NCBI RefSeq assembly: GCF_022271405.1
Contig: NZ_JAJNAL010000008.1
Coordinates: 1 to 64,000 of the forward strand
Direction of reading: 5' to 3'
DNA from: Rhodopseudomonas infernalis
Lineage (GTDB): Bacteria; Pseudomonadota; Alphaproteobacteria; Rhizobiales; Xanthobacteraceae
Length of the DNA stretch: 64,000 bases
Shown: piece by piece, positions 21,870 to 49,583 of the stretch
Numbering within the stretch: the first letter of the stretch is position 1
Layout: every line of letters begins with the position of its first letter
Program-made: the position numbers and the translations under genes
The notes under the pieces: model-generated
The model's database searches: none
Told to the model about the DNA's origin: nothing
Seen by the model: the letters and a program-made list of their open reading frames with translations, nothing else

Positions 21870-21884
21870 CGGCAATTCTTGCCG
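21870..21884. promoter_or_regulatory. FlbD/ftr-like enhancer palindrome for flgE
   Basis: CGGCAA-TTC-TTGCCG is a perfect palindrome, followed at about 21889 by another CGGCAA half-site. It ends 73 bp before the sigma-54 promoter of flgE, the usual placement for an enhancer-binding activator. Near-identical elements precede the sigma-54 promoters of flgI and flgF. Confidence 0.6.
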
Positions 21885-21957
21885 AAGCCGGCAATTCCGC
21901 CACGGCTTCGGCCCGTTGGATAGTTCTTAAGCCACTGAAACAGCTGCATTGTTTCGT

Positions 21958-21972
21958 TGGCACGGAGTTTGC
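21958..21972 (+). promoter_or_regulatory. Sigma-54 promoter of the flgE operon
   Basis: TGGCAC-GGAGT-TTGC is an exact match to the sigma-54 consensus TGGCAC-N5-TTGC. It lies 77 bp before the flgE start codon, giving a predicted leader of about 65 bases. Confidence 0.85.
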
Positions 21973-22048
21973 GGAAGCTCCCACAGATCGTGTCCGACCA
22001 GACAGCACAGCCAGCCGACACGGCGGCTTGAATTGGGAGAAGTGAGTA

Positions 22049-23878
22049 ATGGGTATTTTCGGCGCTCTCACCACCTCGGTCGCGGGCCTGCGCTCGAACT
22101 CCTACGCGCTGGAGAACATCTCCGGGAATATCGCCAACTCCCAGACCACCGCCTTCAAGCGCGTCGACACCTCATTTCTCGATCTGGTCCCGCAAGGTGG
22201 CAGCAGCCAGCAGGCCGCGGGCTCGGTGACTTCCGAGTCGCGGCTGACCAACACGCTGGCCGGCTCCGTTCAGTCGGCCTCGGTCTCGACCTATATGGCG
22301 ATCAACGGCGAAGGCTTCTTTGCGGTCCAGAAGCCCGGCTCCTTTGCAGACAACAGTCCGATCTTCACAGGCGTCAACAACTACACCCGTCGCGGCGACT
22401 TCTCGCTCGACAAGAACGGCTATCTGGTCAACGGCTCGGGCTACTACCTGCAAGGTGTGCCGATCGATTCGACGACCGGCAATCCGGTCGGCAGCACGCC
22501 GCAGGTGCTGAAGTTTCAGAATGACTTCCTGCCGTCGCAGGCGACCACCAAGATCAGCTATCGCGCCAACCTGGCAAGCTACCCGCTGACCACCAAGCAC
22601 GACACTGCGGTGCCTGGCTCCGAATTGTTGCGTCCGGCCGACTTCGCGTCCAACCCGCAGGTCGTCGGCACTTCGCCGCCGCCGTTCGGCGACAACACCA
22701 AAGTCGGCCTGTCGTCGAACAACAAGGCAGGCAGCCCAATCACCGGGGCGACGTTGCTGAAGGGCAGCTCCGGTGACGCCGTTGCGACCAGCTTCACGAT
22801 CACCGACACGGTGACGGTCGGAACCGGATCCGCGGCGAAAACCATCGCCTTCTACGATTCAGGGGCCGGCGGTTCGGCGGGCTCGGCCGCCAACACCACC
22901 TATCTCGACCTTGCCACCGCGACGGTCGCCAATCTGCTCGGCGCGATCGACACGGCGAACGGCAACACCGGCACGGCATCTTCGGCCGCAGCCGGCTCGG
23001 TGACGCTGCACACCGGCACGGCGTCGGATCTGCTCATTACGTCTTCGGCCGGCGGTTTCGCGACGCTCGGCCTGACCAGCCCCGTGACGGTGATGCGCAC
23101 CGGCGGCGGCACAGTGGGCACGGGCCAAGTGATCGGCACCGACAACCAGGCCTTCCTCGACGAATCGATCTCCGGCGGCGCCACGACCGCCTATGACGGC
23201 AGCGGCGCTCCGGTGAACGTGCAGTTCCGTTGGGCCAAAATCGACTCCTCGACGCTCGGTGCCGGGCACACCGACACCTGGAATTTGTTCTATCAGGTCA
23301 ATCCGAATGCCACTGGCAGTCAGGTGGCCTGGCAGAACGTCAATACTAACTTCTCGTTCAGCGCGACGGGGCAGATGAACCCGGTGATCGGGCAGCTGTC
23401 GTTGGCGAACCTCACCGTGTCCGGCGTGTCGCTCGGCACCGTCACGGTCTCGTTCGGCACAGGCGGCCTGACCCAGTTCGCCGACACCAACGGCAATGTT
23501 CAGGTCAATCAGCTGCAGCAGGATGGCTACGCCGCGGGCCAGCTGGTCAGCGTCTCGGTGAGCAATGAAGGCCGCGTCGTCGGCTCTTATTCCAACGGCC
23601 GCAACATCGACCTCGCCGAAGTCTCGGTCGCGACCTTCAACGGCGCGAACTTTCTGAATCGAATCGATGGCGGTGCGTTCGAGGTCACCAACGAGTCCGG
23701 CGAGCCGCTGTACGGCAAGGGCGGCAGCATCTCGGGCTCGTCGCTGGAGTCTTCAAACACCGACATCGCCGACGAATTCACCAAGCTGATCGTCACGCAG
23801 CAGGCCTATTCGGCCAACACCAAGGTCATCACCACGGCCAACACCATGGTGCAGGACCTGCTCAACGTGATGCGCTGA
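22049..23878 (+). CDS. flgE: Flagellar hook protein FlgE
   Basis: This 609-residue protein has the rod/hook N-terminal signature (GIFGALTTSVAGLRSNS, then LENISGNIANSQTTAFKR) and the matching C-terminal heptad segment (SNTDIADEFTKLIVTQQAYSAN). The core FlgE domain with YMAINGEGFFAV and NYTRRGDFSLDKNGYLV is intact. Between about residues 233 and 350 an inserted module resembles the repeated modules of the two flagellins in this window (LGAIDTANGN, then VTLHTGTASDLLI). This explains much of its length over the roughly 400-residue enteric FlgE. It is the first gene of flgE-flgK-flgL, transcribed from a sigma-54 promoter. Confidence 0.95.
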   Translation: MGIFGALTTSVAGLRSNSYALENISGNIANSQTTAFKRVDTSFLDLVPQGGSSQQAAGSVTSESRLTNTLAGSVQSASVSTYMAINGEGFFAVQKPGSFADNSPIFTGVNNYTRRGDFSLDKNGYLVNGSGYYLQGVPIDSTTGNPVGSTPQVLKFQNDFLPSQATTKISYRANLASYPLTTKHDTAVPGSELLRPADFASNPQVVGTSPPPFGDNTKVGLSSNNKAGSPITGATLLKGSSGDAVATSFTITDTVTVGTGSAAKTIAFYDSGAGGSAGSAANTTYLDLATATVANLLGAIDTANGNTGTASSAAAGSVTLHTGTASDLLITSSAGGFATLGLTSPVTVMRTGGGTVGTGQVIGTDNQAFLDESISGGATTAYDGSGAPVNVQFRWAKIDSSTLGAGHTDTWNLFYQVNPNATGSQVAWQNVNTNFSFSATGQMNPVIGQLSLANLTVSGVSLGTVTVSFGTGGLTQFADTNGNVQVNQLQQDGYAAGQLVSVSVSNEGRVVGSYSNGRNIDLAEVSVATFNGANFLNRIDGGAFEVTNESGEPLYGKGGSISGSSLESSNTDIADEFTKLIVTQQAYSANTKVITTANTMVQDLLNVMR

Positions 23879-23924
23879 GGTGCATCGCACGCCTCGTTCT
23901 GTTTCGGTCAACGGGTAGCCGGTC

Positions 23925-25790
23925 ATGAGTCTCGGAGACGCACTTTCGATCGCGATGGCCGGCCTGCGTGCGAACCAGGCGGCGATGTCGCTGGTGTCGT
24001 CGAACGTCGCCAATGCGGAAACGCCCGGCTACGTTCGCAAGACCATCGATCAGGTCCAGACCTATTCGGGCCCGTCCGGCAGCGGCGTCTCGGTCGTCGG
24101 CGTCAACCGCGAACTCGACGCCTTCCTGCAGGCCCAGCTGCGCACCGAAACCTCCGGCGCGTCCTACGCTTCGCTGCGGTCGGATTTCCTCAACCAGGTG
24201 CAGGGATTGTTCGGCGACCCGAACTCGACCGGGACGCTGGAAGATTCCTTCAACAGCCTGACCGCCGCAGTGCGCGCACTCGCCACCAGCCCGGACAGCA
24301 CCTCGGCCCGGATCGGCCTGCTCAATGCGGCGCAGGTGATGTCCGGCGCGCTGAACGCGATGTCGAACGGCATCCAGTCGCTGCGCACCGGCGCCGAGAC
24401 CGGGCTGTCGGACAGCACCACCACCGCCAACAATCTGCTGCAGCAGATCGCCTCGATCAACAACAACATCCGCAGCAATCCGGCCGGGGGCACCTCGACC
24501 GACACGGCGACGGCGGCGATGCTCGACCAGCGCGACCAGGCGATCAGCCAGCTCGCGCAACTGATGGACATCCGCGTCGTCACCGACGGTTCCAATCAGG
24601 TGACGGTCTTCACCGGCTCCGGCGTGCAACTCGCCGGCATGCAGGCCGCCAAGCTGTCGTTCGATGCCCAGGGCACGGTGACGCCGAGCACGACCTGGAG
24701 TTCGAACGCCGCAACCAGTCAGCTCGGGTCCGTCAAGGTCAGCTACGCGGACGGCAGCTCGATCGATCTGACCAGCTCGCTGAAATCCGGCAAGATGGCG
24801 GCCTATATCGAGCTGCGCGACAAGTCGCTGGTGCAGGCGCAGACTCAGCTCGATCAGTTCGCCGCCTCGATGGCGAGCGCGTTGTCGGACAAGACCACGG
24901 CCGGCACTCCGGTGACGTCCGGCACCCAGGCCGGCTTCGCACTCGATCTGTCGAACATGAAGTCCGGCAACACCGTCAATATCAGCTACACCGACACGGC
25001 CACCGGGGCCCAGCGCACCGTCTCGGTGATGCGGGTCGACGATCCGTCGGTGCTGCCGCTGCCGCAGACCGCCACGCTCGATCCCAACGACTATGTGGTC
25101 GGGATCGATTTCTCCGGCGCGTCGGGATCCGTCACCGCGCAGCTCAACGCCGCATTGAACAGCCGCAACCTGCAATTCACCGGCACCGCGCCGAACATCA
25201 CGGTGCTGAACAATCCCAACTTCTCCATCGTCACCGCGGCGTCGGTGACGAGCACGGAGACGTCGCTCGCCGGGGGCAGCGCAGAATTGCCGTTGTTCAC
25301 TGACGGCAGCTCCGCCTATAGCGGTGCGCTGACCGGCTCCGGTTCGCAGATGACCGGCTTCGCGCAGCGGATCGCCGTCAATCCGGCACTGGTCAACGAC
25401 TCCGACAAGCTGGTGTCCTATTCGGCGTCGACGGCAGCCGGCGACACCACGCGTCCCGATTTCATCCTGAAGCAGCTCAGCACCAGCAAATTCTTGTATT
25501 CGCCCTCGACCGGGGTGGGCTCGACCGGCACGCCCTATAACGGCACGCTGCAGAACTATCTGCAGCAATTCGTGTCGCTGCAGGGCTCCAACGCGCAAGC
25601 GGCGTCGCAGCTTTCCGATGGCCAGAACGTGGTGCTGAACACGCTGCAGCAGAAGTACTCGACGAACTCCGGCGTCAACATGGACGATGAAATGGCGCAT
25701 CTGCTGTCGCTGCAGAACGCCTATTCGGCCAATGCGCGCGTGATGTCGACGGTGAACCAGATGTATCAGACGCTGATGCAGGCGATGTGA
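23925..25790 (+). CDS. flgK: Hook-associated protein 1 FlgK
   Basis: A 621-residue junction protein with the N-terminal axial signature (AMAGLRANQAAMSLVSSNVANAETPGYVRK) split around residue 15-45 and a C-terminal helix (NMDDEMAHLLSLQNAYSANARV) typical of FlgK. It forms the first hook-filament junction layer outside the cell. It starts 46 bp after flgE and 7 bp before flgL, consistent with one transcript. Its central region (about 230-480) is Ser/Thr/Ala-rich and beta-like. Confidence 0.93.
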   Translation: MSLGDALSIAMAGLRANQAAMSLVSSNVANAETPGYVRKTIDQVQTYSGPSGSGVSVVGVNRELDAFLQAQLRTETSGASYASLRSDFLNQVQGLFGDPNSTGTLEDSFNSLTAAVRALATSPDSTSARIGLLNAAQVMSGALNAMSNGIQSLRTGAETGLSDSTTTANNLLQQIASINNNIRSNPAGGTSTDTATAAMLDQRDQAISQLAQLMDIRVVTDGSNQVTVFTGSGVQLAGMQAAKLSFDAQGTVTPSTTWSSNAATSQLGSVKVSYADGSSIDLTSSLKSGKMAAYIELRDKSLVQAQTQLDQFAASMASALSDKTTAGTPVTSGTQAGFALDLSNMKSGNTVNISYTDTATGAQRTVSVMRVDDPSVLPLPQTATLDPNDYVVGIDFSGASGSVTAQLNAALNSRNLQFTGTAPNITVLNNPNFSIVTAASVTSTETSLAGGSAELPLFTDGSSAYSGALTGSGSQMTGFAQRIAVNPALVNDSDKLVSYSASTAAGDTTRPDFILKQLSTSKFLYSPSTGVGSTGTPYNGTLQNYLQQFVSLQGSNAQAASQLSDGQNVVLNTLQQKYSTNSGVNMDDEMAHLLSLQNAYSANARVMSTVNQMYQTLMQAM

Positions 25791-25797
25791 GGCAGCA

Positions 25798-27709: not shown

Positions 27710-30382
27710 ATGTCAGGTATCGTTCTCTCGAACGCCGTTCGCCAGAATCTCTCGTCGCTTCAGGCCACGGCAGACTTGCTCGCCACCACCCAGAGCCGCC
27801 TCTCGTCCGGCAAGAAGGTGAACACGGCGCTCGATAATCCGACCAACTTCTTCACGGCCGCCTCGCTCGACGCCCGTGCCAGCGACATCAACAACCTCCT
27901 CGACGGCATTGGCAACGGCGTGCAGATTCTGCAGGCCGCGAACACCGGCATCACCTCGCTCACCAAGCTGGTGGACAGCGCCAAGTCGATCGCCAACCAG
28001 GCTCTGCAGACCGTCACGGGCTACGCGACCAAGTCGAACGTCTCGACCACGATCGCCGGCGCCACCGCCGACGACCTGCGCGGCACTCAGAGCTTCACCA
28101 GCTCCACCGCGCTCGGCTCCGTGCTGTTTGACGGCACCGCCGGCGGCACCACACCGCTGTCGGCCACCGATACGCTCGGCGCCGCCGCGAACTCGATCGC
28201 CAACACGGTCGCCAAGACGACGACCAACTCGGCCACCGATGGTACGGTCAACGGCACCGCTCTGAAGATCGGCACCGGTGGTGCGGATGCGACGGGCGCG
28301 ACCCTGATCAGCGCGCTGACCAACGGTGCGACTGCCTCGGCCACAGGCCCGGTGTCCGGCGACTCGATCACGGTGAACGGCAAGACCATCACCTTCACCA
28401 CCGCCGGCGCGTCCAGCAAGGACAGCTACGGCAACTACACGATCGGTATCGACCAGTCGATCGACTCGCTGCTCGACACCATCGACACCATCAACGGCAA
28501 CACCGCCAAGACGTCGACCGTCACCGGCGGCTTGATCGAGCTGCACACCGGCACCAACAGCCCGCTGACCCTCGGGGACAACTCGAACGGCACCGTGCTG
28601 AGCAAGCTCGGTCTGTCTGCCGGCACCGTTGCGTTCGGTGCCGCTGGCGCCGCTGCCAACGTCACCGACACGACGAAGCTGTTCAACACGCAGGGTGCGC
28701 TCAGCACCAGCGCGATCGCCGACGGCACCACCCTGAGCGTCAATGGCAAGACCATCACGTTCAAGGCCGCCGACGCGCCGCTCGCTTCCGACGCTTCGAC
28801 CGGCACCGGCGTGCTCGGCCGGATCTCGACCGACGGCAACGGCAATTCGACGATCTATCTCGGCAATCAGACCAACTTCACCAACGCGACCGTCGGTGAC
28901 GTGCTGACTGCCATCGATCTTGCCAGCGGTGTGAAGTCAGCCAGCATCTCGAACGGCGTGGCCAACATCAGCACCAACTCCGGCCAGACCGCTTCGACCT
29001 CCGCTGCCGGTATCACCACGATCCGTGGCTCGACCGGTGCCGACCTCAGCATCACCGGCTGGTCCGACCTGTTCAACAACATGGGTCTGACCACGTCGGC
29101 CGGCTCCGGCCCGGTGACCCTGTCGTCGACCCGCACCACCAGCGCCTCGACCATGGGCACGCTGATCGAAGACGGCTCGACCCTGAACGTCAATGGCAAG
29201 ACCATCACGTTCAAGAACGCCGCGGTTCCGACCGCGTCGTCGACCCATCAGGGCATTACCGGCAACGTCGAAACCGACGGCAACGGCAATTCGACGGTGT
29301 ACCTGCAGAAGGGCACCATCAATGACGTGCTGAAGGCGATCGACCTGGCCACCGGCGTGCAGAAGGCGACGCTGGGTGTCTCGGGTGCCACCGTGGCGAC
29401 TGCCACCGGCACCGCCAACTCGTCGATCCTGGCGAGCGGCACGCTGAAGATCTCGACCGGCCTCACCTCCGATCTGAGCATCAACGGCACCGGCAACGCG
29501 CTGGCGGCGCTGGGCCTGACGGGTCCGAGCGGCACTGCGACCACGTTCACGGCGTCTCGCGGTGCCAGCGAGGGCAACCTCGACGGCAAGAGCCTGACGT
29601 TCAGCTCGTTCAAGGGCGGTTCGGCGGTCAACGTCACGCTCGGCGACGGCACCAACGGCACGGTCAAGACGCTGGCTCAGCTCAACGTTGCGCTCGCCGC
29701 CAACAACATGACGGCGTCGATCGACAACTCGACCGGCAAGCTGACGATCGCCGCATCGAACGACTACGCCTCCTACACCCTGGGTGGCGCAGACGGCGGT
29801 GCGATCGGCGGCACCCTGGCTTCTTCGGCAACGTTCTCGGTGCCGGCGGCGCCGGTGGCTGACCCGAACGCGCAGACCACCCGCGCGGGCCTGGTCAAGC
29901 AGTTCAACGACATCATGGACCAGATCACCACCACGGCCCAGGATGCTTCGTTCAACGGCGTCAACCTGCTGAACGGCGACACCCTGAAGCTGGTGTTCAA
30001 CGAAACCGGCAAGTCGACGATCTCGATCCAGGGCGTCACCAACAACCCGACCGGCCTCGGCCTGTCGAGCCTGAACGCCGGGACCGACTTCATCGACAAC
30101 TCGCACACCAATGCGGTGCTGGCGAAGCTGAACACCGCTTCCACCACGCTGCGGTCGCAGGCTTCGGCCTTCGGTTCCAACCTGTCGATCGTGCAGGCCC
30201 GTCAGGAGTTCTCGAAGAACCTGATCAACGTGCTGCAGACCGGCTCGGCCAACCTGACGCTGGCCGACACCAACGAGGAAGCGGCCAACAGCCAGGCGCT
30301 GACGACCCGCCAGTCGATCGCAGTGTCCGCGCTGTCGCTGGCCAACCAGTCGCAGCAGGGCGTGCTCCAGCTGCTGCGCTGA
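27710..30382 (+). CDS. fliC: Giant flagellin 1
   Basis: An 890-residue flagellin. Conserved D0/D1 helices lie at both ends: residues 1-125 include LSSGKKVNTALDNPTNFFTA, and residues 715-890 include ANLTLADTNEEAANSQALTTRQ. The long middle is built from repeated modules of about 85-130 residues at roughly 217-305, 337-475, 487-617 and 624-705. The first three share a DG-x-[TS]-L-x-VNGKTITF-type strand, and B and C also share a STDGNGNST-type turn and a helix like DVLTAIDLASGV. This makes it larger than most flagellins and comparable to thick-flagellum flagellins of Bradyrhizobium. AGGAAGG lies 9 bp before the ATG. FlbT, which controls flagellin mRNA in relatives, is encoded downstream. Confidence 0.93.
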   Translation: MSGIVLSNAVRQNLSSLQATADLLATTQSRLSSGKKVNTALDNPTNFFTAASLDARASDINNLLDGIGNGVQILQAANTGITSLTKLVDSAKSIANQALQTVTGYATKSNVSTTIAGATADDLRGTQSFTSSTALGSVLFDGTAGGTTPLSATDTLGAAANSIANTVAKTTTNSATDGTVNGTALKIGTGGADATGATLISALTNGATASATGPVSGDSITVNGKTITFTTAGASSKDSYGNYTIGIDQSIDSLLDTIDTINGNTAKTSTVTGGLIELHTGTNSPLTLGDNSNGTVLSKLGLSAGTVAFGAAGAAANVTDTTKLFNTQGALSTSAIADGTTLSVNGKTITFKAADAPLASDASTGTGVLGRISTDGNGNSTIYLGNQTNFTNATVGDVLTAIDLASGVKSASISNGVANISTNSGQTASTSAAGITTIRGSTGADLSITGWSDLFNNMGLTTSAGSGPVTLSSTRTTSASTMGTLIEDGSTLNVNGKTITFKNAAVPTASSTHQGITGNVETDGNGNSTVYLQKGTINDVLKAIDLATGVQKATLGVSGATVATATGTANSSILASGTLKISTGLTSDLSINGTGNALAALGLTGPSGTATTFTASRGASEGNLDGKSLTFSSFKGGSAVNVTLGDGTNGTVKTLAQLNVALAANNMTASIDNSTGKLTIAASNDYASYTLGGADGGAIGGTLASSATFSVPAAPVADPNAQTTRAGLVKQFNDIMDQITTTAQDASFNGVNLLNGDTLKLVFNETGKSTISIQGVTNNPTGLGLSSLNAGTDFIDNSHTNAVLAKLNTASTTLRSQASAFGSNLSIVQARQEFSKNLINVLQTGSANLTLADTNEEAANSQALTTRQSIAVSALSLANQSQQGVLQLLR

Positions 30383-30785: not shown

Positions 30786-33452
30786 ATGTCTGACGTGGTT
30801 CTCTCGGCATCAGTTCGCCAGAATCTGTTATCTCTGCAATCGACCGCAGAGCTGCTGTCGACCACCCAGAACCGGCTTGCGAGCGGCAAGAAGGTCAACA
30901 CCGCGCTCGACAATCCAACAAACTTCTTCACCGCGGCAGGGCTCGACAGCCGGGCCAGCGACATCAACAATCTGCTCGACGGCATCAGCAATGGCGTCCA
31001 GATCCTGCAGGCGGCCAACACCGGCATCACATCGCTGAACAAGCTGATCGACACCGCCAAGTCGATCGCCAACCAGGCGCTGCAGTCGAACGTCGGCTAC
31101 ACCACGAAATCAAACGTTTCAGCCACCATCGCAGGCGCGACGCCGGACGATCTGCGCGGCACCCAGACCTTCGCCAGCGCGACCGCCACCAGCAACGTGG
31201 TCAACAATGGCAATGCCGGCGGCACCACGCCGGTGGCGCTGAGCAGCACGCTCGGCGGCGGCGTCGGCAGCATCACCGGCGGCTCGGCGATCACCAAGCC
31301 GGTCGCGGCCGACAACTCGGCCACCGGCACGGCGCTGCACATCGGCACGGCCAGCGCGCTCGCGGACGGCACGACCCTGATCAGCGCGCTGACCAGCGGC
31401 CTGACCAGCACCGCAACCGGCCCGCAGGCCGGTGATGTCCTCGTCGTCAACGGCAAGACCATCACCTTCACCACGACGGGCTCGCAGGCCAACGACGGCA
31501 ACGGCAACTACACGATCGGCATCAATCAGCCGCTCAGCGCGCTGCTGGCGACCGTCGACTCGATCAACGGCAACACCAGCAATCCGTCGGTGGTCGACGC
31601 CAACGGCCGGCTCGAGTTGCACACCGGCACCAATCGTGCGCTGTCGATCAGCGATACGACCGGCGGCCAGGTGATGGCGAAGCTCAATCTGAGCCCGACC
31701 GTCGACGTGGCGCTGAACACCGGCGCGACCAGCGCGATCACCGCCACCACCAAGCTGTTCAACACGGTCGGCGGTTTGCAGACCGGCGCCATCGCCGACG
31801 GCACCACGCTGAACGTGAACGGCAAGTCGATCGTGTTCAAGGCCAGCGATCCGCCGAACGCGGCAGGCCTGCTGGCCGGTTCGGGCGTGCTCGGCAATAT
31901 CGTCACCGATACGTCGGGTAACTCGACGATCTACATGGGCACCAGCAACGCCTACACCTCGGCCACGGTCGGGGACGTGCTGACCGCGATCGATCTGGCG
32001 AGCGGCGTCAAGACCGCCACGATCGCCGGCGGCGTCGCGACCTTCGCGACCAACGGCACGCCTTCGCAGATCTCTGGTTCGGGTGTCGTGACCCTGCAGA
32101 CGTCGACCGGCGCTGATCTCAGCATCACCGGTCCGGCCGACTTCCTCAACACGCTGAAGCTGACCGGGTCCACCGGTCCCGGCCCGGCCACGGTGACCGC
32201 GACCCGCACCACCAGTGCGGCGACGATCGGCACGCTGATCCAGGACGGCGCGACGCTGAACGTCAACGGCAACATCGTCACCTTCAAGAACGCCCCGGTG
32301 CCTGCGGCGTCCGCCACCCACACCGGCGTGACCGGCAATATCGAGACCGATGGTCTCGGCAATTCGACCGTGTATCTGCAGGGCGGCACCATCGCCGACG
32401 TGCTGACTGCGATCGATCTTGCCACCGGCGTGCAGATCGCAAAGCTGAATTCGGGCGGCGCCACGCTGTCGACCCAGGTCAACTCGGCGAGTTCGTCGCT
32501 GTCGAGCGGCGCGCTGAAGATCTCGACCGGCAGCGCCTCCGATCTCACCATCAGCGGCACCGGCAATGCGCTGGTGGCGCTCGGCCTCGCCGGCAACACC
32601 GGCACCTCGACCGAGTTCAAGGCCTCGCGCGCGTCCGGCACCGGCGGCGTCTCCGGCAAGAGCCTGACCTTCACCTCGTTCAAGGGCGGAACGCCGGTCA
32701 ACGTCATCTTCGGCGACGGCACCGGCGGCACGGTGAAGACGCTGGCACAGCTCAATGCAAAGCTGGCGACCAACAACATGACCGCGCAGATCGATGCCAA
32801 TGGCTTGCTGACGATCTCCTCGAACAACGACTATGCGTCGGCGACACTCGGTTCGGTCGCCGACGGCGGCACGGTCGGCGGCACCATCACGGCGACGCTG
32901 ACCTTCAGCACGCCAAATCCGCCGGTGGCCGACGTCACCGCGCAGATGGCGCGGTCCAAGCTGGTCGATCAGTACAACAACGTCATTCAGCAGATCACCA
33001 CCACGTCGCAGGACGCCTCGTTCAACGGCGTCAATCTGCTCAACGGCGACACGCTGAAGCTGGTGTTCAACGAGACCGGCAAGTCGACTCTGAACATCGT
33101 CGGCACCGCGCTCAGCCCGGCGGCGCTCGGCCTGCCGACGCTGGTGTCCGGCGTCGACTTCATCGACAACGCCGCGACCAACAAGACGCTGACCGCTCTG
33201 AACAACGCGTCGACCACGCTGCGCTCGCAGGCGTCGTCGTATGGTTCGAACCTGTCGATCGTGCAGATCCGCCAGGACTTCGCCAAGAACCTGATTAACG
33301 TGTTGCAGACTGGCTCGTCCAACCTGACGCTTGCCGACACCAACGAAGAAGCGGCCAACAGCCAGGCACTTTCGACGCGCCAGTCGATCGCGGTCTCGGC
33401 GCTGTCGCTGGCCAACCAGTCGCAGCAGAGTGTGCTGCAGCTGCTCCGTTAA
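30786..33452 (+). CDS. fliC: Giant flagellin 2
   Basis: An 888-residue paralogue of flagellin 1 in tandem. The terminal helical domains are very similar (RLASGKKVNTALDNPTNFFTA at the N-terminus, NLTLADTNEEAANSQALSTRQ at the C-terminus). The modular centre keeps the same order but has diverged clearly, for example NVNGNIVTFKNAPVPAAS in place of NVNGKTITFKNAAVPTAS. Equal length and module order point to an old whole-gene duplication. AGGAAGG lies about 9 bp before the ATG, as in flagellin 1. Its promoter region differs from that of its twin and contains a CtrA-type box, so the two genes may be expressed at different times or levels. Confidence 0.93.
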   Translation: MSDVVLSASVRQNLLSLQSTAELLSTTQNRLASGKKVNTALDNPTNFFTAAGLDSRASDINNLLDGISNGVQILQAANTGITSLNKLIDTAKSIANQALQSNVGYTTKSNVSATIAGATPDDLRGTQTFASATATSNVVNNGNAGGTTPVALSSTLGGGVGSITGGSAITKPVAADNSATGTALHIGTASALADGTTLISALTSGLTSTATGPQAGDVLVVNGKTITFTTTGSQANDGNGNYTIGINQPLSALLATVDSINGNTSNPSVVDANGRLELHTGTNRALSISDTTGGQVMAKLNLSPTVDVALNTGATSAITATTKLFNTVGGLQTGAIADGTTLNVNGKSIVFKASDPPNAAGLLAGSGVLGNIVTDTSGNSTIYMGTSNAYTSATVGDVLTAIDLASGVKTATIAGGVATFATNGTPSQISGSGVVTLQTSTGADLSITGPADFLNTLKLTGSTGPGPATVTATRTTSAATIGTLIQDGATLNVNGNIVTFKNAPVPAASATHTGVTGNIETDGLGNSTVYLQGGTIADVLTAIDLATGVQIAKLNSGGATLSTQVNSASSSLSSGALKISTGSASDLTISGTGNALVALGLAGNTGTSTEFKASRASGTGGVSGKSLTFTSFKGGTPVNVIFGDGTGGTVKTLAQLNAKLATNNMTAQIDANGLLTISSNNDYASATLGSVADGGTVGGTITATLTFSTPNPPVADVTAQMARSKLVDQYNNVIQQITTTSQDASFNGVNLLNGDTLKLVFNETGKSTLNIVGTALSPAALGLPTLVSGVDFIDNAATNKTLTALNNASTTLRSQASSYGSNLSIVQIRQDFAKNLINVLQTGSSNLTLADTNEEAANSQALSTRQSIAVSALSLANQSQQSVLQLLR

Positions 33453-33468
33453 GCGCGACAGAACGGCA

Positions 33469-35570: not shown

Positions 35571-35912
35571 TCAGGCCTTGCCGTTCGCCTGTTGAAGAAT
35601 GAGGGTGCGGAACACATCGCTGGCAATGCCGACGCCGCCAGCCTTCGCCACGGTCTGCGAATACTGTTCCGTCAGCATCGAGCGCCAGACCCCGGTTCCG
35701 ACCGTGTCGCCGAACGGGCCTTCGCCCTTCAGCCCCGAGGTCATCTGCGAGAACATCGAATTCAGAAACATCGCCTCGAAGTCGCGGGCGGAATTGCGTG
35801 CCTTCGTCTGGGCCTCCGGCGAGACCTTTGCGAGTGCCGCAGCCATATCGTGGTCGGGGCGGCCGTTGCGCGTCGGAGCGGTGGTCGGATAGTTGACCGG
35901 GACAAGCGACAT
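35571..35912 (-). CDS. flgJ: FlgJ-type rod-binding protein
   Basis: A 113-residue protein with only the rod-binding FlgJ N-domain: ARDFEAMFLNSMFSQMTSGL and GVWRSMLTEQYSQTVAKAGG. It lacks the muramidase domain of enteric FlgJ, as is normal in alphaproteobacteria, where a separate lytic enzyme acts. Its ATG overlaps the flgI stop as TGATG with GAGGTG 5 bp upstream, so translation is coupled to flgI. Confidence 0.88.
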   Translation of the reverse strand: MSLVPVNYPTTAPTRNGRPDHDMAAALAKVSPEAQTKARNSARDFEAMFLNSMFSQMTSGLKGEGPFGDTVGTGVWRSMLTEQYSQTVAKAGGVGIASDVFRTLILQQANGKA

Positions 35913-37033
35913 CACATCACCTCGATATCGGCTTCGATGGCGCCGGCGGCCTTGATGGCCTGCAGGATGCCGATCAGGTCGCGGGGGCCGATGCCGAGGC
36001 CGTTGAGGCCGTCGACCAGCTGCTGCAGCGACACGCCGTCCTTGACCAGCGCCAGCTTCTTGCCGTCTTCGGTGACGCCGACCCGCGTGTTCGGCGTCAC
36101 CACGGTGCGACCGCGCGACAAGGGGTTGGGCTGGCTGACCTGCGGGCTTTCGGAAATCGACACGGTGAGGTTGCCCTGCGCCACCGCAACGGTGGCGACA
36201 CGGACGTCGCGGCCCATCACGATGATGCCGCTGCGTTCGTCGATGATGATCTTGGCAGCCTGATCCGGCTCGACCTGCAACTGCTCGATTTCGGTGACGA
36301 AGGCGACGGCGTTGCCTTTGAATTCGGCCGGGATCGAGAGCTGCACGGTCGACGGATCGATCGGCTCTGCGCTCTTGGTGCCAAGAAAGTCGTTGACCGC
36401 CGCGGCGATGCGCTTGGCGGTGGTGAAGTCGGCGTTGCGCAGCGCCAGCCGCACCATCGGCAGCCGGTTCAGGGCGAATTCGATTTCGCGTTCGATGATC
36501 GCGCCGTTGGCGATACGGCCGACGGTGGGGACGCCGCGGGTGATCTTGGCGGCATCGCCCTCGGCCTGGAAGCCGCCGATCGCCAGCGAGCCTTGCGCCA
36601 CGGCGTATACATTGCCGTCGGCGCCCAGCAGCGGCGTCACGAGCAACGTGCCGCCCTGCAGATTCTTGGCGTCGCCGAGCGCCGAGACAGTGACGTCCAT
36701 CCGGGTGCCTTGGGTGGCGAAAGCGGGCAGATTGCCGGTCACCATCACGGCGGCGACGTTGCCGGTGCGGATGGTGGCGCCGCGGATGTTGACGCCCATT
36801 CGCTCCAGCATCGCCTGCAGCGATTGCTTGGTGAAGGGGATGTTGTTCAGCGTATCGCCGGTGCCGTTGAGGCCGACCACGAGGCCGTAGCCGATCAGCT
36901 GATTCTGCCGGACGCCCTCGATATTGGCGAGGTCTTTGATGCGCGACGTCGCGCTGGCGGCCACCCCCGACAGCAGCAGCGCGGACAGGGCGACTGCGGC
37001 CAGCTTCAGGATCGTGGACGAAACGCTCGGCAT
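35912..37033 (-). CDS. flgI: Flagellar P-ring protein FlgI
   Basis: A 373-residue P-ring protein with a signal peptide (AAVALSALLLSGVAASATS) and the FlgI signature SRIKDLANIEGVRQNQLIGY followed by GLVVGLNGTGD. It forms the periplasmic ring around the rod in the peptidoglycan. It heads the flgI-flgJ-flgN transcript from a sigma-54 promoter and is divergent from fliX, an arrangement also known in Caulobacter. Confidence 0.96.
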   Translation of the reverse strand: MPSVSSTILKLAAVALSALLLSGVAASATSRIKDLANIEGVRQNQLIGYGLVVGLNGTGDTLNNIPFTKQSLQAMLERMGVNIRGATIRTGNVAAVMVTGNLPAFATQGTRMDVTVSALGDAKNLQGGTLLVTPLLGADGNVYAVAQGSLAIGGFQAEGDAAKITRGVPTVGRIANGAIIEREIEFALNRLPMVRLALRNADFTTAKRIAAAVNDFLGTKSAEPIDPSTVQLSIPAEFKGNAVAFVTEIEQLQVEPDQAAKIIIDERSGIIVMGRDVRVATVAVAQGNLTVSISESPQVSQPNPLSRGRTVVTPNTRVGVTEDGKKLALVKDGVSLQQLVDGLNGLGIGPRDLIGILQAIKAAGAIEADIEVM

Positions 37034-37092: not shown

Positions 37093-37107
37093 GCGAGACC
37101 CGTGCCA
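37093..37107 (-). promoter_or_regulatory. Sigma-54 promoter of the flgI operon
   Basis: On the minus strand TGGCAC-GGGTC-TCGC matches TGGCAC-N5-TTGC with one mismatch and keeps the invariant GG-N10-GC. It lies 60 bp before the flgI start. The flgF promoter has the same form including TCGC. Confidence 0.8.
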
Positions 37108-37201
37108 ATCGCCAGGATTTGATAAGCATCTGTTCTGAATAACTAAATCGCGATGGCGATGGCGGGGCCGCAGCGCTGCCCACGGCAAAACCGACACCGC
37201 C

Positions 37202-37216
37202 CGGCAAATCTTGCCG
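37202..37216. promoter_or_regulatory. FlbD/ftr-like enhancer palindrome for flgI
   Basis: CGGCAA-ATC-TTGCCG, a perfect palindrome differing from the flgE element only in one spacer base. It lies 94 bp upstream of the flgI sigma-54 promoter. Another CGGCAA half-site is at about 37183. Confidence 0.6.
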
Positions 37217-37220: not shown

Positions 37221-37235
37221 TTTACCCGCCGTTAA
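37221..37235 (+). promoter_or_regulatory. CtrA-type box upstream of fliX
   Basis: TTTA-CCCGCCG-TTAA matches TTAA-N7-TTAA with one mismatch and extends as TTAACCAT. It lies 106 bp before fliX, a class II gene controlled by CtrA in Caulobacter. Confidence 0.6.
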
Positions 37236-37341
37236 CCATAAACCGCGAGGTTGGGTTCCCGGGCTCTCAGCGCGCTTGTCAGCTTGGGTGTATGCTGTTC
37301 AGGCGCGGCGCTTAGCCAGGAACAGTCCGGCGAGAAAGACC

Positions 37342-37758
37342 ATGCGAATCTACGGCCCGAACGGCACCTCCACATCGACACCCTCGAGCACGGTCCGTCG
37401 CAGCGGCTCGAGCACGTTCTCATTGCCCACCGGCGGCGCGCAGCCGGAGCCTGAAGCCCGGGCGGTGCATGCGCCGCTGGCACCGACGGGGCTCGAGGCG
37501 CTGCTGGCCATGCAGGGCGTCGAGGACGCCACCGAGCGCCGCAAACGTTCGGTCGCGCGCGGTCGGACGGCGCTCGACGTGCTCGACGATCTAAAAATGG
37601 GCCTGCTGGCCGGCAATTTCGATCCGTCGACCGTGATGCGGCTGCGCGCTGCCGCGGCGGAGCTTAAGGCCTCGTCCGGCGATCCGGGTCTCGACGCGGT
37701 GTTGTCGGAAATCGAGCTACGGGTCGAAGTCGAACTCGCCAAAGCCGGCCAATACTGA
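37342..37758 (+). CDS. fliX: Flagellar assembly regulator FliX
   Basis: The 138-residue protein matches FliX: MRIYGPNGTS at the start, a low-complexity Pro/Ala stretch, then ALLAMQGVEDATERRKRS and a helical C-terminal half ending in LRVEVELAKAGQY. In Caulobacter FliX joins assembly of the early basal body to activation of the sigma-54 activator FlbD. flbD itself is not in the window. The ATG was chosen because homologues start at MRIYGP, and the upstream frame spans the divergent promoter region. Confidence 0.92.
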   Translation: MRIYGPNGTSTSTPSSTVRRSGSSTFSLPTGGAQPEPEARAVHAPLAPTGLEALLAMQGVEDATERRKRSVARGRTALDVLDDLKMGLLAGNFDPSTVMRLRAAAAELKASSGDPGLDAVLSEIELRVEVELAKAGQY

Positions 37759-41236: not shown

Positions 41237-41301
41237 TTTCTGGCGGCTGGCGATGGGCGGGCAGGAGTCTCGCACGGCCGTTGCGATCGGAGAATAGTTC
41301 A

Positions 41302-42486: not shown

Positions 42487-42496
42487 GGTCACGATC

Positions 42497-45400: not shown

Positions 45401-45634
45401 ATGACGTCGCTCGCGTTCATCCTCGGCGTCACGCCGCTGGCGTTCGCGACCGGGGTCAGCGCCGGCAGCCAGAACGCGATCGGCACCGGCGTGCTCGGCG
45501 GCATGCTGTCGGCGACCCTGCTGGCGGTGCTGTTCGTGCCGGTGTTCTACGTCTTCGTACTCCGCCGGGTGGAGCGCCGAAAGCCGGCCCGTCACGCAGG
45601 CGCGGTGGGCGAAGGCGAACCGCAATCGGGTTGA
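42497..45634 (+). CDS. acrB: RND multidrug efflux pump, HAE1 family (AcrB-like)
   Basis: A 1045-residue AcrB-type pump of normal family length. It starts with MSAFFIARPIFAWVVAIFIM and shows AMVLAIGILVDDAIVVVENV (helix 4, with the paired Asp residues of the proton relay) and VGLIAIIGLSAKNAILIVEF (helix 10 with the relay Lys). Two large periplasmic loops bind drugs. It forms an operon with the adaptor under TetR control. GAGG lies 9 bp before the ATG. A minus-strand frame of more than 1100 codons across it is a shadow of codon bias. Confidence 0.94.
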   Translation: MSAFFIARPIFAWVVAIFIMIAGALAIPFLPVAQYPNVVPAKISVTANYPGASSEEIYQGVTRLIEDQLNGIPGLMYFESTADATGAISIEVSFQPGTSLAQATVDVQNRIRRVESRLPSAVTQRGIVVDEASSAFLMFISVQSTDGSIDSIGVGDYITRNLLSEIRRVEGVGKAQLFGTQRSMRVWIDPDKLLGLSLTVADVSAAIASQNAQVAAGRIGATPNPISQEVSAPVLVKGQLGTPEEFGAIVLRANRNGSTVRLRDVARIEVGGEDYNTESRLNGQPAAAIGIQLSATANALATSKAVTAKMKELSKYFPKGLTYEIPYNTSPFIQGSIEKVLYTLAEAVGLVFVVMFLFLQNIRYTLIPTIVVPIALLGTCAVMFATGFSINVLTMFAMVLAIGILVDDAIVVVENVERLMATEGLSPRAATEKAMQQIRGAIVGITLVLTAVFVPMAFFPGAVGIIYRQFSLTMVVSILFSSFLALTLTPALCATFLKPVPADHHEKHGFFGWFNRAFNSVAGRYQSAVGWATGRIGRMMVIYLALLAALGWAYLRLPAAFLPAEDQGYLIVDIQAPTEATQSRAMNSIEQAEKVFLEDTSVAQVFTVSGFSFSGNAQSAAVAFVTLKDWSVRGDDDAETIARRANVHLAKIGDASVMALSPPPIDGLGNFTGFTFRLQDRGSRGTAALDEAAAQLTAAAAESPVLAGVRVEGLANSAQLNLVIDREKANTFGVSFADINATITASLGSAYVNDFPNAGRMQRVTIQALDTRRMRADDLLKLNVRNSSGGMVPLSAFARTEWSKGPIQVVGFNGYPSVRFAGDAAPGHSSGEALAEMERLAKQLPSGFGFEWAGQSLQEIQSGNQAPFLLGLSVLFVFLLLAALYESWSIPLSVMLVVPLGIIGSLLAVMIRELPNDIYFKVGLIAIIGLSAKNAILIVEFAKELHAEGKSLREAAIEAATVRFRPIIMTSLAFILGVTPLAFATGVSAGSQNAIGTGVLGGMLSATLLAVLFVPVFYVFVLRRVERRKPARHAGAVGEGEPQSG

Positions 45635-45705
45635 TCGAAACTGCTGAGTAGTCCGGAGTCGCTTGCGGCTCATCGCCCTTTGAGATCGGGTACTTTCGTT
45701 TCCAC

Positions 45706-45797
45706 CCGTCATGCCCGGCCTTGTGCCGGGCATCCACGCCTTGCTGACGGAATCGCATCAAAGGCGTGGATGGCCGGGACAAGCCCGGCCATGACGG
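45706..45797. repeat. REP/BIME-like inverted repeat pair
   Basis: A 37-base unit beginning CCGTCATGCCCGGCCTTG (45706-45742) is repeated in inverted orientation at 45761-45797 (ending CGGCCATGACGG) with few mismatches, separated by 18 bases. Each unit also has its own internal GCCCGGC-type hairpin. Units of this sequence are widely dispersed in Bradyrhizobium and Rhodopseudomonas genomes between convergent genes. Confidence 0.85.
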
Positions 45798-45850
45798 AAT
45801 TTGTGACCACCTTCGGCGATCTAGAAAGTACTACGTAGCTTGAAGAGGCC

Positions 45851-45887
45851 GCGGCCTCCGTCCGGGGGAGAGCCGGAGGAGGCCGCG
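45851..45887 (-). terminator. Hairpin after flgH
   Basis: GCGGCCTCCG pairs with CGGAGGAGGCCGC (one bulged A) about 70 bp past the flgH stop. On the minus strand only a short T-rich stretch follows, so strength is uncertain. Confidence 0.5.
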
Positions 45888-45954
45888 TTGGAACACCTGA
45901 CTGCGCCTAGGTTCGCAGCCGGGTGTGGGAGCTCGTTGTGTTAGATCATGTCCG

Positions 45955-46713
45955 TCAGAACGGCAGCAGCACGTCCATCACCTGCGAGCCGTAGCGCGGC
46001 TGCTGCACATCGGTGATCTGGCCGCGACCGCCATAGGCGATGCGGGCCTGCGCGATCTTGCTGCTGTCGATGGTGTTGTCGCTCTGGATGTCTTCCGGCC
46101 GGACGATGCCGGCGACGATCAGTTCGCGGACTTCGAAATTGACGCGGATTTCCTGCTTGCCCTCGACCACCAGATTGCCGTTCGGCAGCACCTGCGTCAC
46201 CACCGCGGCGACGCTTGTCTGCAGCGCTTCCTGGCGCTGCACCGAGCCCTTGCCATCGCTCGTCGAGGTCGAGTCCGTGGTCAGGATGCGGCCGGGCAAC
46301 ACCGCGGTGGCGGGGTTGGTGATGGTCTTGCTGCCGATGAAATCGGTGATGCCGGAATCGTCGGTGTTCTTTCGGCTGCGCTGGGTCTCGTTGGCGATGT
46401 TGGCCTTGTCGGTGAAGTTCACCGTCACGGTCATGATATCGCCGACCTTGGCGGCGCGCTGATCGCGGAAGAACGCGCGCGAGCCGTTCCGCCACAGCGA
46501 GTTGGCGTTGTAGGAGGCGACCTCCGGCTTCGGCATCGGCATCTGCACCGGCTTGTAGCCCGGCTGGGTGGTGGGATTCTCGATCGCACTCAGCGCCGGC
46601 CGCTCGCCAATCGCGGCGAGCCGGTCGATCGAGGAGCAGCCGCCGGCAAAGCCGCCCGTCGCCAGCAGCGCGGCGATCAGGACGAGACGGTTGGTCGGGA
46701 TGGACTTGTACAT
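45955..46713 (-). CDS. flgH: Flagellar L-ring lipoprotein FlgH
   Basis: A 252-residue outer-membrane ring protein. The lipoprotein signal is MYKSIPTNRLVLIAALLATG, ending in FAGGC at the modified Cys. The family core SLWRNGSRAFFRDQRAAKVGD and the C-terminal VRPEDIQSDNTIDSSKIAQARI (ends shown in part) fit FlgH. It is the last gene of flgF-flgG-flgA-flgH. ATG 46713 was chosen. A GTG at 46722, overlapping the flgA stop, is the alternative. Confidence 0.93.
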   Translation of the reverse strand: MYKSIPTNRLVLIAALLATGGFAGGCSSIDRLAAIGERPALSAIENPTTQPGYKPVQMPMPKPEVASYNANSLWRNGSRAFFRDQRAAKVGDIMTVTVNFTDKANIANETQRSRKNTDDSGITDFIGSKTITNPATAVLPGRILTTDSTSTSDGKGSVQRQEALQTSVAAVVTQVLPNGNLVVEGKQEIRVNFEVRELIVAGIVRPEDIQSDNTIDSSKIAQARIAYGGRGQITDVQQPRYGSQVMDVLLPF

Positions 46714-46718
46714 TGAAC

Positions 46719-47792
46719 TCACTCGGGCTTCGCGGCGGAACTGCGGGCGATGGAGGGTTCGGGCGCCACGGCGGACGCAGCTCCGCCGGCGCTGGCGAGG
46801 ACCCGCGGCACGGCGACCATCACCACCACCTGGCCACGTCCCACCACGGTCGCGGGCACGGTTCGCTTCGATTGCAGATTCAGCACGTTGACGACGTCGC
46901 CTTCGGTGCCGGTTTCCAACGCCTTGCCGCGCGAGGTCAGATAGATGCCGGCGGCCTCGTAGATCAGCGTCACGCTCTGGTCGCGGGTCACGAGGTCCGG
47001 CTTGGTGAGATCGGTGGTTCGCATCACCTGGCCGCCGCGCAGCGATCGCCGCGTCTGCATGCCGATCGCGGCCTCGCGCGTGACGGTGTCGGAGGTGACC
47101 TCGGCTTTCGGACGGCGCTCGATCGCGACGTCGGAGACCTTGATCACTTCGTTTCGTTCGATCGGCCGGGTCAGCACGGTTACCGGGGCCGTCTCGACGG
47201 CCGTGCCGGTGACGCGAAGACGCACCGGCGCATTGTCGGCGCCGCCGCTGATCTCGAAGCTGAGATCGAAGCGGCCGCTGCGGCGGTCGAACCGATCGGC
47301 GACCAGCATCGGGGCGCCGCTGTAATTTGCCGGCAGGGTGCGCGCCTCGATCTCGCGATCCCAGGTCAGCGCCAGATCCTCGGCGTCGCCGAGACCGTGA
47401 CGGCGCTGCAGAACCTCGATCACCTGCTTCTCGATCTCCTTCGCCGGCAGGCTGCGTGCCAGCCGGGTGACGGTGACTTCGCGGATGTCGCGGGTGTCGA
47501 CGCCGATCACCTGATGGGCGCGCAGCGTGGCGATCACCGCGTTTGTCGACAACGCGCCGGTGGTCCCGAGATCAGGCGCCCGATACACGGCGATCTGTGC
47601 GGCGACGCCGGCGTTGTCGATCAGGTCGCCGATCCGGACCAGTTCGTCGGCGACTTCGATGTGGGCGCGCAGCACCGGCGTGCGCAGCACGTCTTCGACC
47701 TGCGGCGACAGGCGCGGGGCGGGCGCGGTTTCGGCGGCGACCGCTGCGATCGGTGTTGCAACGAGCAAGGCGGCGAGGAGAGAACGGATCAT
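46719..47792 (-). CDS. flgA: P-ring assembly chaperone FlgA
   Basis: A 357-residue exported protein with a signal peptide (SLLAALLVATPIAAVAA). The C-terminal part has the SAF-type domain of FlgA (TVLTRPIERNEVIKVSDVAIE, RRSLRGGQVMRTTDL and VTLIYEAAGIYLTSRGKAL). FlgA helps FlgI monomers form the P-ring. The N-terminal extension of about 120 residues makes it longer than enteric FlgA (about 220), as is common in rhizobiales. The gene overlaps the flgH start region and lies 12 bp after flgG. Confidence 0.92.
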   Translation of the reverse strand: MIRSLLAALLVATPIAAVAAETAPAPRLSPQVEDVLRTPVLRAHIEVADELVRIGDLIDNAGVAAQIAVYRAPDLGTTGALSTNAVIATLRAHQVIGVDTRDIREVTVTRLARSLPAKEIEKQVIEVLQRRHGLGDAEDLALTWDREIEARTLPANYSGAPMLVADRFDRRSGRFDLSFEISGGADNAPVRLRVTGTAVETAPVTVLTRPIERNEVIKVSDVAIERRPKAEVTSDTVTREAAIGMQTRRSLRGGQVMRTTDLTKPDLVTRDQSVTLIYEAAGIYLTSRGKALETGTEGDVVNVLNLQSKRTVPATVVGRGQVVVMVAVPRVLASAGGAASAVAPEPSIARSSAAKPE

Positions 47793-47804
47793 CGGTCAGC
47801 TCCC

Positions 47805-48593
47805 TCAGCGGAACATGTTGGAGGTGGACTGCAGCATCTGGTCGGCGGCGCTGACGACCTTGGCGTTCATCTCGTAGGCGCGCTGCGCGGCGATCAGGTC
47901 GGAGATTTCATTGACGACTTCGACGTTGGCCTGCTCCAGCGTCTTCTGCAGCATGTCGCCGAGGCCATCGACGGTGGCGATGCCGTCCTGCGGCGGGCCC
48001 GAAGCCTGGGTTTCGAGGAACAGATTGTCGCCTTCCGGCTGCAGGCCGGTCTTGTTGATGAAGCGGGTCAGGCCGATCTGGCCGATCACGGTCGGCGTGG
48101 TCGAGCCCGAGACAGTCACCGAGACCTGGCCGTTGCTCGCGACCGTGATGCCGTAGGCGCCGTTCGGAATGGTGATGGTCGGCTGCACCGGATTGCCGGC
48201 TGCGGTGACCACGCGGCCGGTGTTGTCGGTGGTGAACGAGCCGTCGCGCGTGTAGCGATAGGTGCCGTCCGGCATCTGGATCTTGAAGAAGCCTTCGCCG
48301 CGGACCGCGAGGTCGAGATCGTTGCCGGTGGTCGACAGCGTGCCCTGGGTCATCAGCCGCGGCGTGCCGACGGTCTTGACGCCGCCGCCGATATCGACGC
48401 CGACCGGAATGATCGTGCCCTGATCGGACGCCTGGGTGCCGACGCGGCGGACGTGGTCGTAGATCAGGTCCTGAAACTGCGCCGTCTGCTTCTTGAACCC
48501 GGTGGTTCGCATATTGGCGATGTTGTTGGAGATCACCTGAACGTTGAGCTCCTGAGCGGCCATTCCGGTCGCCGCGGTGTAGAGTGCGCGCAT
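47805..48593 (-). CDS. flgG: Distal rod protein FlgG
   Basis: A 262-residue protein of the standard FlgG length, with MRALYTAATGMAAQELNVQ, VISNNIANMRTTGFKKQTAQ and the C-terminal VEVVNEISDLIAAQRAYEMN. It builds the distal rod crossing the periplasm. GGAGA lies just ahead of the ATG, and the gene sits 12 bp after flgF. Confidence 0.96.
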   Translation of the reverse strand: MRALYTAATGMAAQELNVQVISNNIANMRTTGFKKQTAQFQDLIYDHVRRVGTQASDQGTIIPVGVDIGGGVKTVGTPRLMTQGTLSTTGNDLDLAVRGEGFFKIQMPDGTYRYTRDGSFTTDNTGRVVTAAGNPVQPTITIPNGAYGITVASNGQVSVTVSGSTTPTVIGQIGLTRFINKTGLQPEGDNLFLETQASGPPQDGIATVDGLGDMLQKTLEQANVEVVNEISDLIAAQRAYEMNAKVVSAADQMLQSTSNMFR

Positions 48594-48605
48594 CTCAGGT
48601 CTCCT

Positions 48606-49367
48606 TTACGCCGGCACGTCAGCAAGCCGCTCGATGGCGGTCTTCTGCAGGTCGCCTTCCTGCTGCAGCAGGGCGGAAACGGATTGGTAGGAGCGGCTGA
48701 CGGCGATCATCCGCGACATCTCGGCGACCGAATTGACGTTCGATTTCTCGACGTAGCCTTGGCGCACCTGCGATTTGGTGTCGGGCGCGCCGGGATCGTT
48801 GGTGGCGGCATAGAGATTGTCGCCCTGCTTCTCCAGGCTCTGCGGCCGCGCGAACGACACCATCCGGAGCTTGCCGCGCAGCGAGTCGATCACCGCGCTG
48901 CCTTCGATCACGCTGACATTGCCGTCGGCGGCGATGTTGATCGCCTTGTCGGTCGGCTGGAACACGATCGGGCCGGAGTTGCCGAGCACCTGATAGCCGG
49001 AGGCGTTGACGAGCTGGCCCTGCGGATTGATCGAGAGCTTGCCGTCGCGGGTGTAGCGCTCGCCGGCCGGAGTCTGCACCACCAGGAAGGCCGAGCCGTC
49101 GATGGCGATGTCGAGCGGGTTCTTGGTCTCGTCCAGCGGTCCGGAGGAGAAGTCGTGATAGGCGGCGCGGTCCTGCACGAAACTGACCCGGCGGTCCGGC
49201 TGCTGGAAATTGTCTTCGTGCGCCCCGGTGTTCAGGAATTCCTGAAACATCGAACGCTGGGCCTTGAAGCCATTGGTGTTCACGTTCGCCAGGTTGTTCG
49301 CGACGACATCCATCTGTCGTTCGAGCACGACCTGCCGCGACAAGCCGACCAGAAGCGTATTCTGCAT
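48606..49367 (-). CDS. flgF: Proximal rod protein FlgF
   Basis: A 253-residue rod protein: MQNTLLVGLSRQVVLERQMD, VVANNLANVNTNGFKAQRSM, and the C-terminal NVNSVAEMSRMIAVSRSYQS. The open frame begins 40 codons earlier at 49487, but that N-terminus is not rod-like and contains the sigma-54 promoter. The inner ATG has GGGAG 8 bp upstream. It heads the four-gene flgF-flgG-flgA-flgH transcript. Confidence 0.95.
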   Translation of the reverse strand: MQNTLLVGLSRQVVLERQMDVVANNLANVNTNGFKAQRSMFQEFLNTGAHEDNFQQPDRRVSFVQDRAAYHDFSSGPLDETKNPLDIAIDGSAFLVVQTPAGERYTRDGKLSINPQGQLVNASGYQVLGNSGPIVFQPTDKAINIAADGNVSVIEGSAVIDSLRGKLRMVSFARPQSLEKQGDNLYAATNDPGAPDTKSQVRQGYVEKSNVNSVAEMSRMIAVSRSYQSVSALLQQEGDLQKTAIERLADVPA

Positions 49368-49466
49368 CGGTATTCTCCCTTTAACGATCCGCTTCCGGTC
49401 CTCCCAGACCCTCGGCGGATGCCGTGAACCGAAGCTCTCCCAAGCCGCGGTTCGCCCTTCCGTCTT

Positions 49467-49481
49467 GCGAGCGGCGTGCCA
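49467..49481 (-). promoter_or_regulatory. Sigma-54 promoter of the flgF operon
   Basis: On the minus strand TGGCAC-GCCGC-TCGC matches TGGCAC-N5-TTGC with one mismatch and GG-N10-GC intact. It is the same variant as the flgI promoter. The flgF start codon is 100 bp downstream. Confidence 0.8.
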
Positions 49482-49562
49482 ACTCATAAAAGCAAATTAA
49501 ATCAATTGCTTAACGTTCTTGGAGAGCGCTGGGAGGTCGGCAATAAGGATCTGTTGACCATG

Positions 49563-49583
49563 TTGCCCGGCAAAATCTTCCTA
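49563..49583. promoter_or_regulatory. FlbD/ftr-like enhancer element for flgF
   Basis: CCCGGCAAAATCTTCC is the flgI element with one inserted A and one lost G, so it is a degenerate member of the same family. It is preceded by TTGCC, and another CGGCAA is at 49538. It lies about 85 bp upstream of the flgF sigma-54 promoter. Confidence 0.5.

Follow-up and report, generated by a model that had tools for sequence, protein, structure and literature searches.

A palindrome at early and late flagellar promoters of Rhodopseudomonas infernalis, probably bound by FlbD

How can one regulator repress early flagellar genes and activate late ones? This old question becomes directly testable at a 64,000-nucleotide stretch of the Rhodopseudomonas infernalis genome (contig NZ_JAJNAL010000008.1, positions 1 to 64,000, forward strand; the whole stretch is called the window here). 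The original prediction held that a palindrome upstream of flgE, flgI and flgF is an FlbD binding site shared by all three sigma-54 flagellar promoters, and that the hook, P-ring and rod operons form one class III regulon. Sequence comparisons now indicate that the palindrome very probably is the FlbD binding site and that it would serve in two roles, in pairs as an enhancer activating class III genes, and singly as an operator repressing class II genes. The list of three promoters and the notion of one class III regulon turned out to be too narrow, because the core of the palindrome is also found at fliK, which has a sigma-54-type promoter, and at two class II genes, fliF and flhA.

The perfect palindromes of flgE and flgI, like the three promoters, lie where they had been placed, and flgF has a degenerate version. 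Each of the three elements stands 73–94 base pairs (bp) upstream of an exact TGGCAC-N5-TYGC word; the flgE, flgI and flgF promoters are the only exact matches to this word in the window. At flgE the gap between palindrome and promoter is 73 bp, and a weaker second site follows the first:

21870–21884, no strand: FlbD-type palindrome CGGCAATTCTTGCCG, predicted enhancer site 1 of flgE
21888–21901, plus strand: weaker second site CCGGCAATTCCGCC, whose GGCA lies 19 bp past the GGCA of the palindrome
21958–21972, plus strand: sigma-54 promoter TGGCACGGAGTTTGC of flgE, exact TGGCAC-N5-TYGC
22049–23878, plus strand: flgE, hook protein, followed by flgK and a flagellin-like gene

The flgE product scores above the cut-off of an FlgE/F/G subfamily model and matches FlgE models below their cut-offs. 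To follow the arrangement across genomes, we defined a strict composite (palindrome-N66-96-TGGCAC-N5-TYGC) and scanned a panel of 296 genomes of the same family, whose nearest named relatives are Rhodopseudomonas and Bradyrhizobium, and a panel of 385 genomes of the class. The composite is present in 83 of the family genomes and 38 of the class genomes, and in none of either panel when the pattern is reversed. Among 30 fetched family loci with palindrome and promoter, flgE is the next gene in 29, and the remaining locus, L088, is closely followed by a fliX, as judged by coordinates. The 13-bp core of the palindrome, GGCAA-N3-TTGCC, stands 74–85 bp from the promoter in the 29 flgE loci, and a second GGCA is found at an offset of 18, 19 or 20 in all 31 composite sequences (the 29 flgE loci, L088 and flgE of the window). 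In many relatives (L065–L094) the second site merges into a GC-rich hairpin (GCCCCGG...CCGGGGC) followed by a T-rich stretch, and the enhancer may therefore overlap the terminator of the gene preceding flgE.

Between flgI and the divergent class II gene fliX, the palindrome lies 94 bp from the flgI promoter and, on the fliX side, 4 bp from a CtrA-like box; that fliX is encoded in the window is borne out by its Pfam match:

35912–37033, minus strand: flgI, P-ring protein
37093–37107, minus strand: sigma-54 promoter TGGCACGGGTCTCGC of flgI, exact TGGCAC-N5-TYGC
37183–37194, minus strand: diverged second site TCGGTTTTGCCG, where relatives have GGCAGTTTCGCC
37202–37216, no strand: FlbD-type palindrome CGGCAAATCTTGCCG between flgI and fliX
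37221–37237, plus strand: CtrA-like box TTTA-N7-TTAACC on the fliX side, with a presumed CtrA role
37342–37758, plus strand: fliX, FlbD partner regulator (Pfam FliX PF10768, E 1e-44)

Across 43 flgI regions the gap between the 15-mer and the promoter is 93–98 bp in 41 (84 and 148 in the other two). The core is exact in six regions and within one mismatch in 41, its commonest form being CGGCAAAATCTGCCG (21 regions), and the CtrA-like box adjoins the palindrome at fliX in 39. A second GGCA recurs at an offset of 18–20 in 38 of these regions as well as in all composite sequences, and the class III enhancer would thus usually consist of a strong and a weak site about two helical turns apart.

The third region, between flgF and fliL, carries the degenerate version:

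48606–49367, minus strand: flgF, rod protein, start set at 49367, followed by flgG, flgA and flgH
49467–49481, minus strand: sigma-54 promoter TGGCACGCCGCTCGC of flgF, exact TGGCAC-N5-TYGC, conserved in relatives
49568–49582, minus strand: degenerate FlbD-type site AGGAAGATTTTGCCG upstream of flgF
49609–49617, plus strand: CtrA half-site-like word GTTAACCAT on the fliL side, with a presumed CtrA role
49723–50226, plus strand: fliL, divergent early gene, followed by fliM

Here the gap to the promoter is 86 bp and the element differs from the palindrome at 3 of 12 positions. A second match with three mismatches exists at a gap of 213 in the same region, and AGGAAGATTTTGCCG alone would not stand out. 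Its TGCCG half is found at a gap of 86–88 in all 80 flgF regions compared (80 loci plus the window, minus L125, whose contig ends early) and its GGAA half in 79 of them; GTTAACCAT forms a conserved block in the flgF–fliL alignment of 79 sequences.

Outside the window, fliK is preceded by a similar predicted enhancer, with the core GGGCAATTCTTGCCG, a gap of 94 and the promoter TGGCCCGCTCCTTGC, which as TGGCCC-N5-TTGC deviates from the exact word by one mismatch, in the –24 word. In the whole 5.5-Mb genome the exact 15-mer CGGCAA-N3-TTGCCG occurs at four places, as opposed to none for the reversed pattern: at flgE, between flgI and fliX, 131 bp upstream of flhA, and within an open reading frame (ORF) that, judged by eye, encodes a xanthine-dehydrogenase-like small subunit. 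The core occurs at 10 places versus five for the reversed pattern, and five of the 10 are in flagellar promoter regions (flgE, flgI/fliX, fliK, flhA and fliF). On the question whether the palindrome is rarer away from sigma-54 promoters, the answer is mixed, with three core copies at sigma-54-type promoters, two at class II flagellar promoters and five elsewhere; of the last, three are inside long ORFs (C5:84219, C21 and C70) and two outside (C4 and C61).

These counts also bear on the possibility that GC-rich DNA produced the palindromes by chance. The five non-flagellar core copies equal the number found with the reversed pattern, and palindromes with up to two mismatches are enriched neither in the window (9 versus 6.04 expected, a value reached by 15 of 100 shuffles) nor in the genome (607 per strand versus 670 in the reversed control), so that only the exact palindrome is informative. 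Against chance stand the exact copies, their positions, their conservation across genomes and a control with lateral-type genes described below, and we regard this explanation as practically negligible. The promoter word itself has 37 exact matches genome-wide versus 12 in the reversed control, many of which may not be promoters; within 180 bp upstream of the 30 non-window matches that were scanned (four others were left out), no palindrome with up to two mismatches was found.

At the class II promoters of fliF and flhA, this core is found in a different setting. In this genome, the region upstream of fliF has a CtrA-like box followed by the core TAGGCAAGATTTGCCTA. For each gene we compared the best 30 loci from 36 with a match among 41 genomes, chosen to represent roughly one per genus. 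An exact core is present in 25 of 30 genomes at fliF and in 23 of 30 at flhA, and allowing one mismatch raises both counts to 29 of 30; exact cores appeared in just one and three of 6000 mononucleotide-shuffled upstream sequences of flhA and fliF, respectively. In 29 of 30 genomes for fliF, and again in 29 of 30 for flhA, a CtrA-like TTAA-N7-NNAACCA precedes the core (the CtrA motif is given as TTAA-N7-TTAA in the available part of PMC12403871), and ACCAT and GGCAA are separated by 6 bp in 26 of 27 scorable flhA regions and 22 of 28 scorable fliF regions. A control is provided by fliF and flhA copies of lower identity (FlhA 61–67%, FliF 34–37%), which we label lateral-type: neither a core within one mismatch nor a CtrA-like box of the TTAA-N7-NNAACCA type was found in any of their 16 upstream regions from eight genomes, fragments or extra copies in G010, G021, G036 and G024 having been left out. 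Three of the eight genomes (G024, G026 and G037) carry a polar-type set too, and the lateral-type genes can serve as natural negative controls, three pairs of them within such genomes.

It might be argued that FlbD is an activator only, and that the fliF and flhA copies are bound by another factor or activate as a positive feedback. Repression at these two genes is indeed a prediction. Yet none of the genome's 37 exact TGGCAC-N5-TYGC words lies on the contigs of flhA (C18) or fliF (C27), the site follows so closely behind the CtrA-like box that it probably falls within the promoter body, and fliF is repressed by FlbD in Caulobacter (PMC3930126, available part). We therefore consider a purely activating FlbD quite unlikely.

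That FlbD is the protein that binds the palindrome is well supported, if indirectly, by the position of flbD after fliN, the presence of fliX in the window, the association of the composite with fliX and the absence of the core from lateral-type fliF and flhA; to this extent the original assignment has gained ground. A search for sigma-54 activator domains located flbD on another contig (L057:1141–2520), directly after fliN. Its product has a GAFTGA loop, the PF00158 domain and a Fis-type helix-turn-helix (HTH_8), and the name rests on these domains and on the place after fliN. FliX is found in 80 of the 83 composite-positive family genomes versus 210 of 296 overall, and in 36 of the 38 composite-positive class genomes versus 208 of 385 overall. 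In Bradyrhizobium diazoefficiens, a close relative of this genome with an FlbD–FliX system, FlbD and FliX are reportedly class II regulators that control flagellar synthesis, going by the title of a 2021 paper by Dardis et al.

The other candidate is NtrX, which would couple nitrogen or cell-cycle state to motility. In Sinorhizobium meliloti it reportedly binds CAAN2-5TTG, a motif contained in the CAA-N3-TTG of the core, affects flagellar synthesis and down-regulates genes whose start site its own site overlaps (available part of PMC9223101). The NtrX-like protein of this genome (L061, so called from its position beside an NtrC-like gene) has no GAFTGA in its translation and for this reason should not activate sigma-54 promoters, a role that is needed at flgE, flgI and flgF. 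Moreover, the conserved GG and CC flanks extend past CAA-N3-TTG, the contig with the ntrC/ntrX-like pair (C56) bears none of the 10 core sites, and composite-positive genomes are enriched for fliX; as opposed to an NtrX regulon, the conserved sites here stand at flagellar promoters of fliX-bearing systems. NtrX is accordingly a very unlikely binder, and FlbD remains the preferred one.

Across the class, 21 of 30 fetched composite loci are located before flagellar genes, where the downstream gene is defined as the longest ORF whose start is at most 450 bp away. Nine lie between flgI and fliX, two before an FlgE-like gene (one of them from this genome, the other 31% identical), six before flagellins, three before flgK and one before flaG; the others precede four GGDEF genes, one ApbE gene and four ORFs without a Pfam match. 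Among the 30 of 41 listed class places for which the distance was computed, 24 have fliX on the same contig, and in 10 of these it lies within 1.1 kb of the composite.

In Caulobacter crescentus, as far as the available parts of the cited papers go, flbD and fliX are among the early genes driven by CtrA, and FlbD is kept in check by FliX as long as the early structure is unfinished (PMC3930126, PMC3096577). The ftr sites are where FlbD binds; it switches on middle and late genes and, through ftr4, represses fliF (PMC3930126). Shared with this system are the presence of FlbD and FliX, upstream sites at sigma-54 promoters of hook, ring and rod genes, and a site at an early CtrA-type fliF (ftr4 in Caulobacter), where repression is predicted here; the Caulobacter division into activated late and repressed early genes (PMC3930126, PMC3096577) is likewise predicted here. 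Three details were noted here: the sharp 13–15 bp palindrome, a distance of nearly always 6 bp between the CtrA-like box and the core at both fliF and flhA, and a second site 18–20 bp from the first, seen at flgE and in the majority of flgI regions. The literature searched, which did not include key subscription papers and was available in part, yielded neither the letters of an FlbD site nor a description of the sharp palindrome, the 6-bp CtrA–FlbD spacing or the paired sites. 'Motif 3' of Methylosinus sporium, in the available part of PMC12403871, may be an FlbD or related box, an identity that is a guess. All in all, the arrangement looks like a well-conserved version of the Caulobacter circuit, not like a new one.

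In the mechanism that we propose, the enhancer would consist of a full site and a weaker one, usually 18–20 bp apart and mostly 73–98 bp upstream of a –24/–12 promoter, on which FlbD dimers would oligomerise to activate sigma-54 RNA polymerase at flgE, flgI, flgF and fliK. The operator would be one lone site, its core beginning some 6 bp past the CtrA-like box of fliF or flhA, and FlbD bound to it would block the CtrA-driven promoter. On completion of the MS-ring and export gate, FliX would let FlbD act, turning early genes off and late genes on. The choice between repression and activation might then depend on how many sites there are and where they lie with respect to CtrA. In its strongest form, namely that the DNA itself encodes the sign of FlbD action, with two far-upstream sites for activation and one site about 6 bp behind a CtrA box for repression, this idea is tentative and may well prove wrong. 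If it holds, the CtrA–FlbD composite at fliF and flhA is a direct switch in which FlbD displaces or locks the CtrA-driven polymerase and shuts the early genes once FliX reports a finished export gate. As a candidate FlbD box, the palindrome is precise enough to be searched for across a large alphaproteobacterial family, and fliK, flhA and possibly a CcrM-like gene are further predicted targets.

Several observations weigh against a two-role FlbD site. The flgI region of the window is among the five of 43 without the second GGCA and retains just the other half, TTTTGCCG, and half of the symmetry is missing from the flgF element. The strict composite is absent from 213 of 296 family genomes, 130 of them FliX-bearing, and the exact words are thus far from universal. 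Conversely, five composite-positive genomes lack a FliX match: three of the 83 from the family panel (G033, G109 and G293) and two of the 38 from the class panel, which are the ApbE case (G621, L179) and one of the GGDEF cases (G324, L198). The association with FliX is also partly confounded because fliX, sigma-54 flagellar promoters and polar flagella co-occur, and related genomes do not represent independent counts. A strict TAACCAT-N4-8-palindrome word is found in only five of 385 class genomes, at six places (three before flhA, one of these in the R. infernalis genome itself (G000), one before fliF, and L278 and L279), so that the fixed CtrA–palindrome geometry looks like a trait of the host family and its order; L278 and L279 have no match to eight query proteins, and the ORF after L278 has no Pfam match. 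Finally, the comparisons establish the sites themselves, their geometry, how well they are conserved and how they go together with fliX, whereas we infer from these that FlbD binds, in which direction it regulates each gene, what the second site does and that the sites are equivalent to Caulobacter ftr.

Three minor observations concern other genes. The window contains two large flagellin genes (27710–30382 and 30786–33452) of about 890 amino acids each, which both match NF011295; no exact TGGCAC-N5-TYGC was found upstream of either. One of the non-flagellar cores, GGCAATATTTGCC at L274:1501–1513 (G000:C61:10997–11009), lies between a zinc-peptidase gene and a gene for a CcrM-like DNA methylase with N6_N4_Mtase and RAMA domains. 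This core may be background, or it may connect FlbD to cell-cycle methylation, in which case the switch would extend to that process. In four class loci (L192, L193, L194 and L198, three of them from one genus), a GGDEF diguanylate cyclase gene lies behind the palindrome and a sigma-54 promoter, which suggests that FlbD may control cyclic di-GMP in these genomes.

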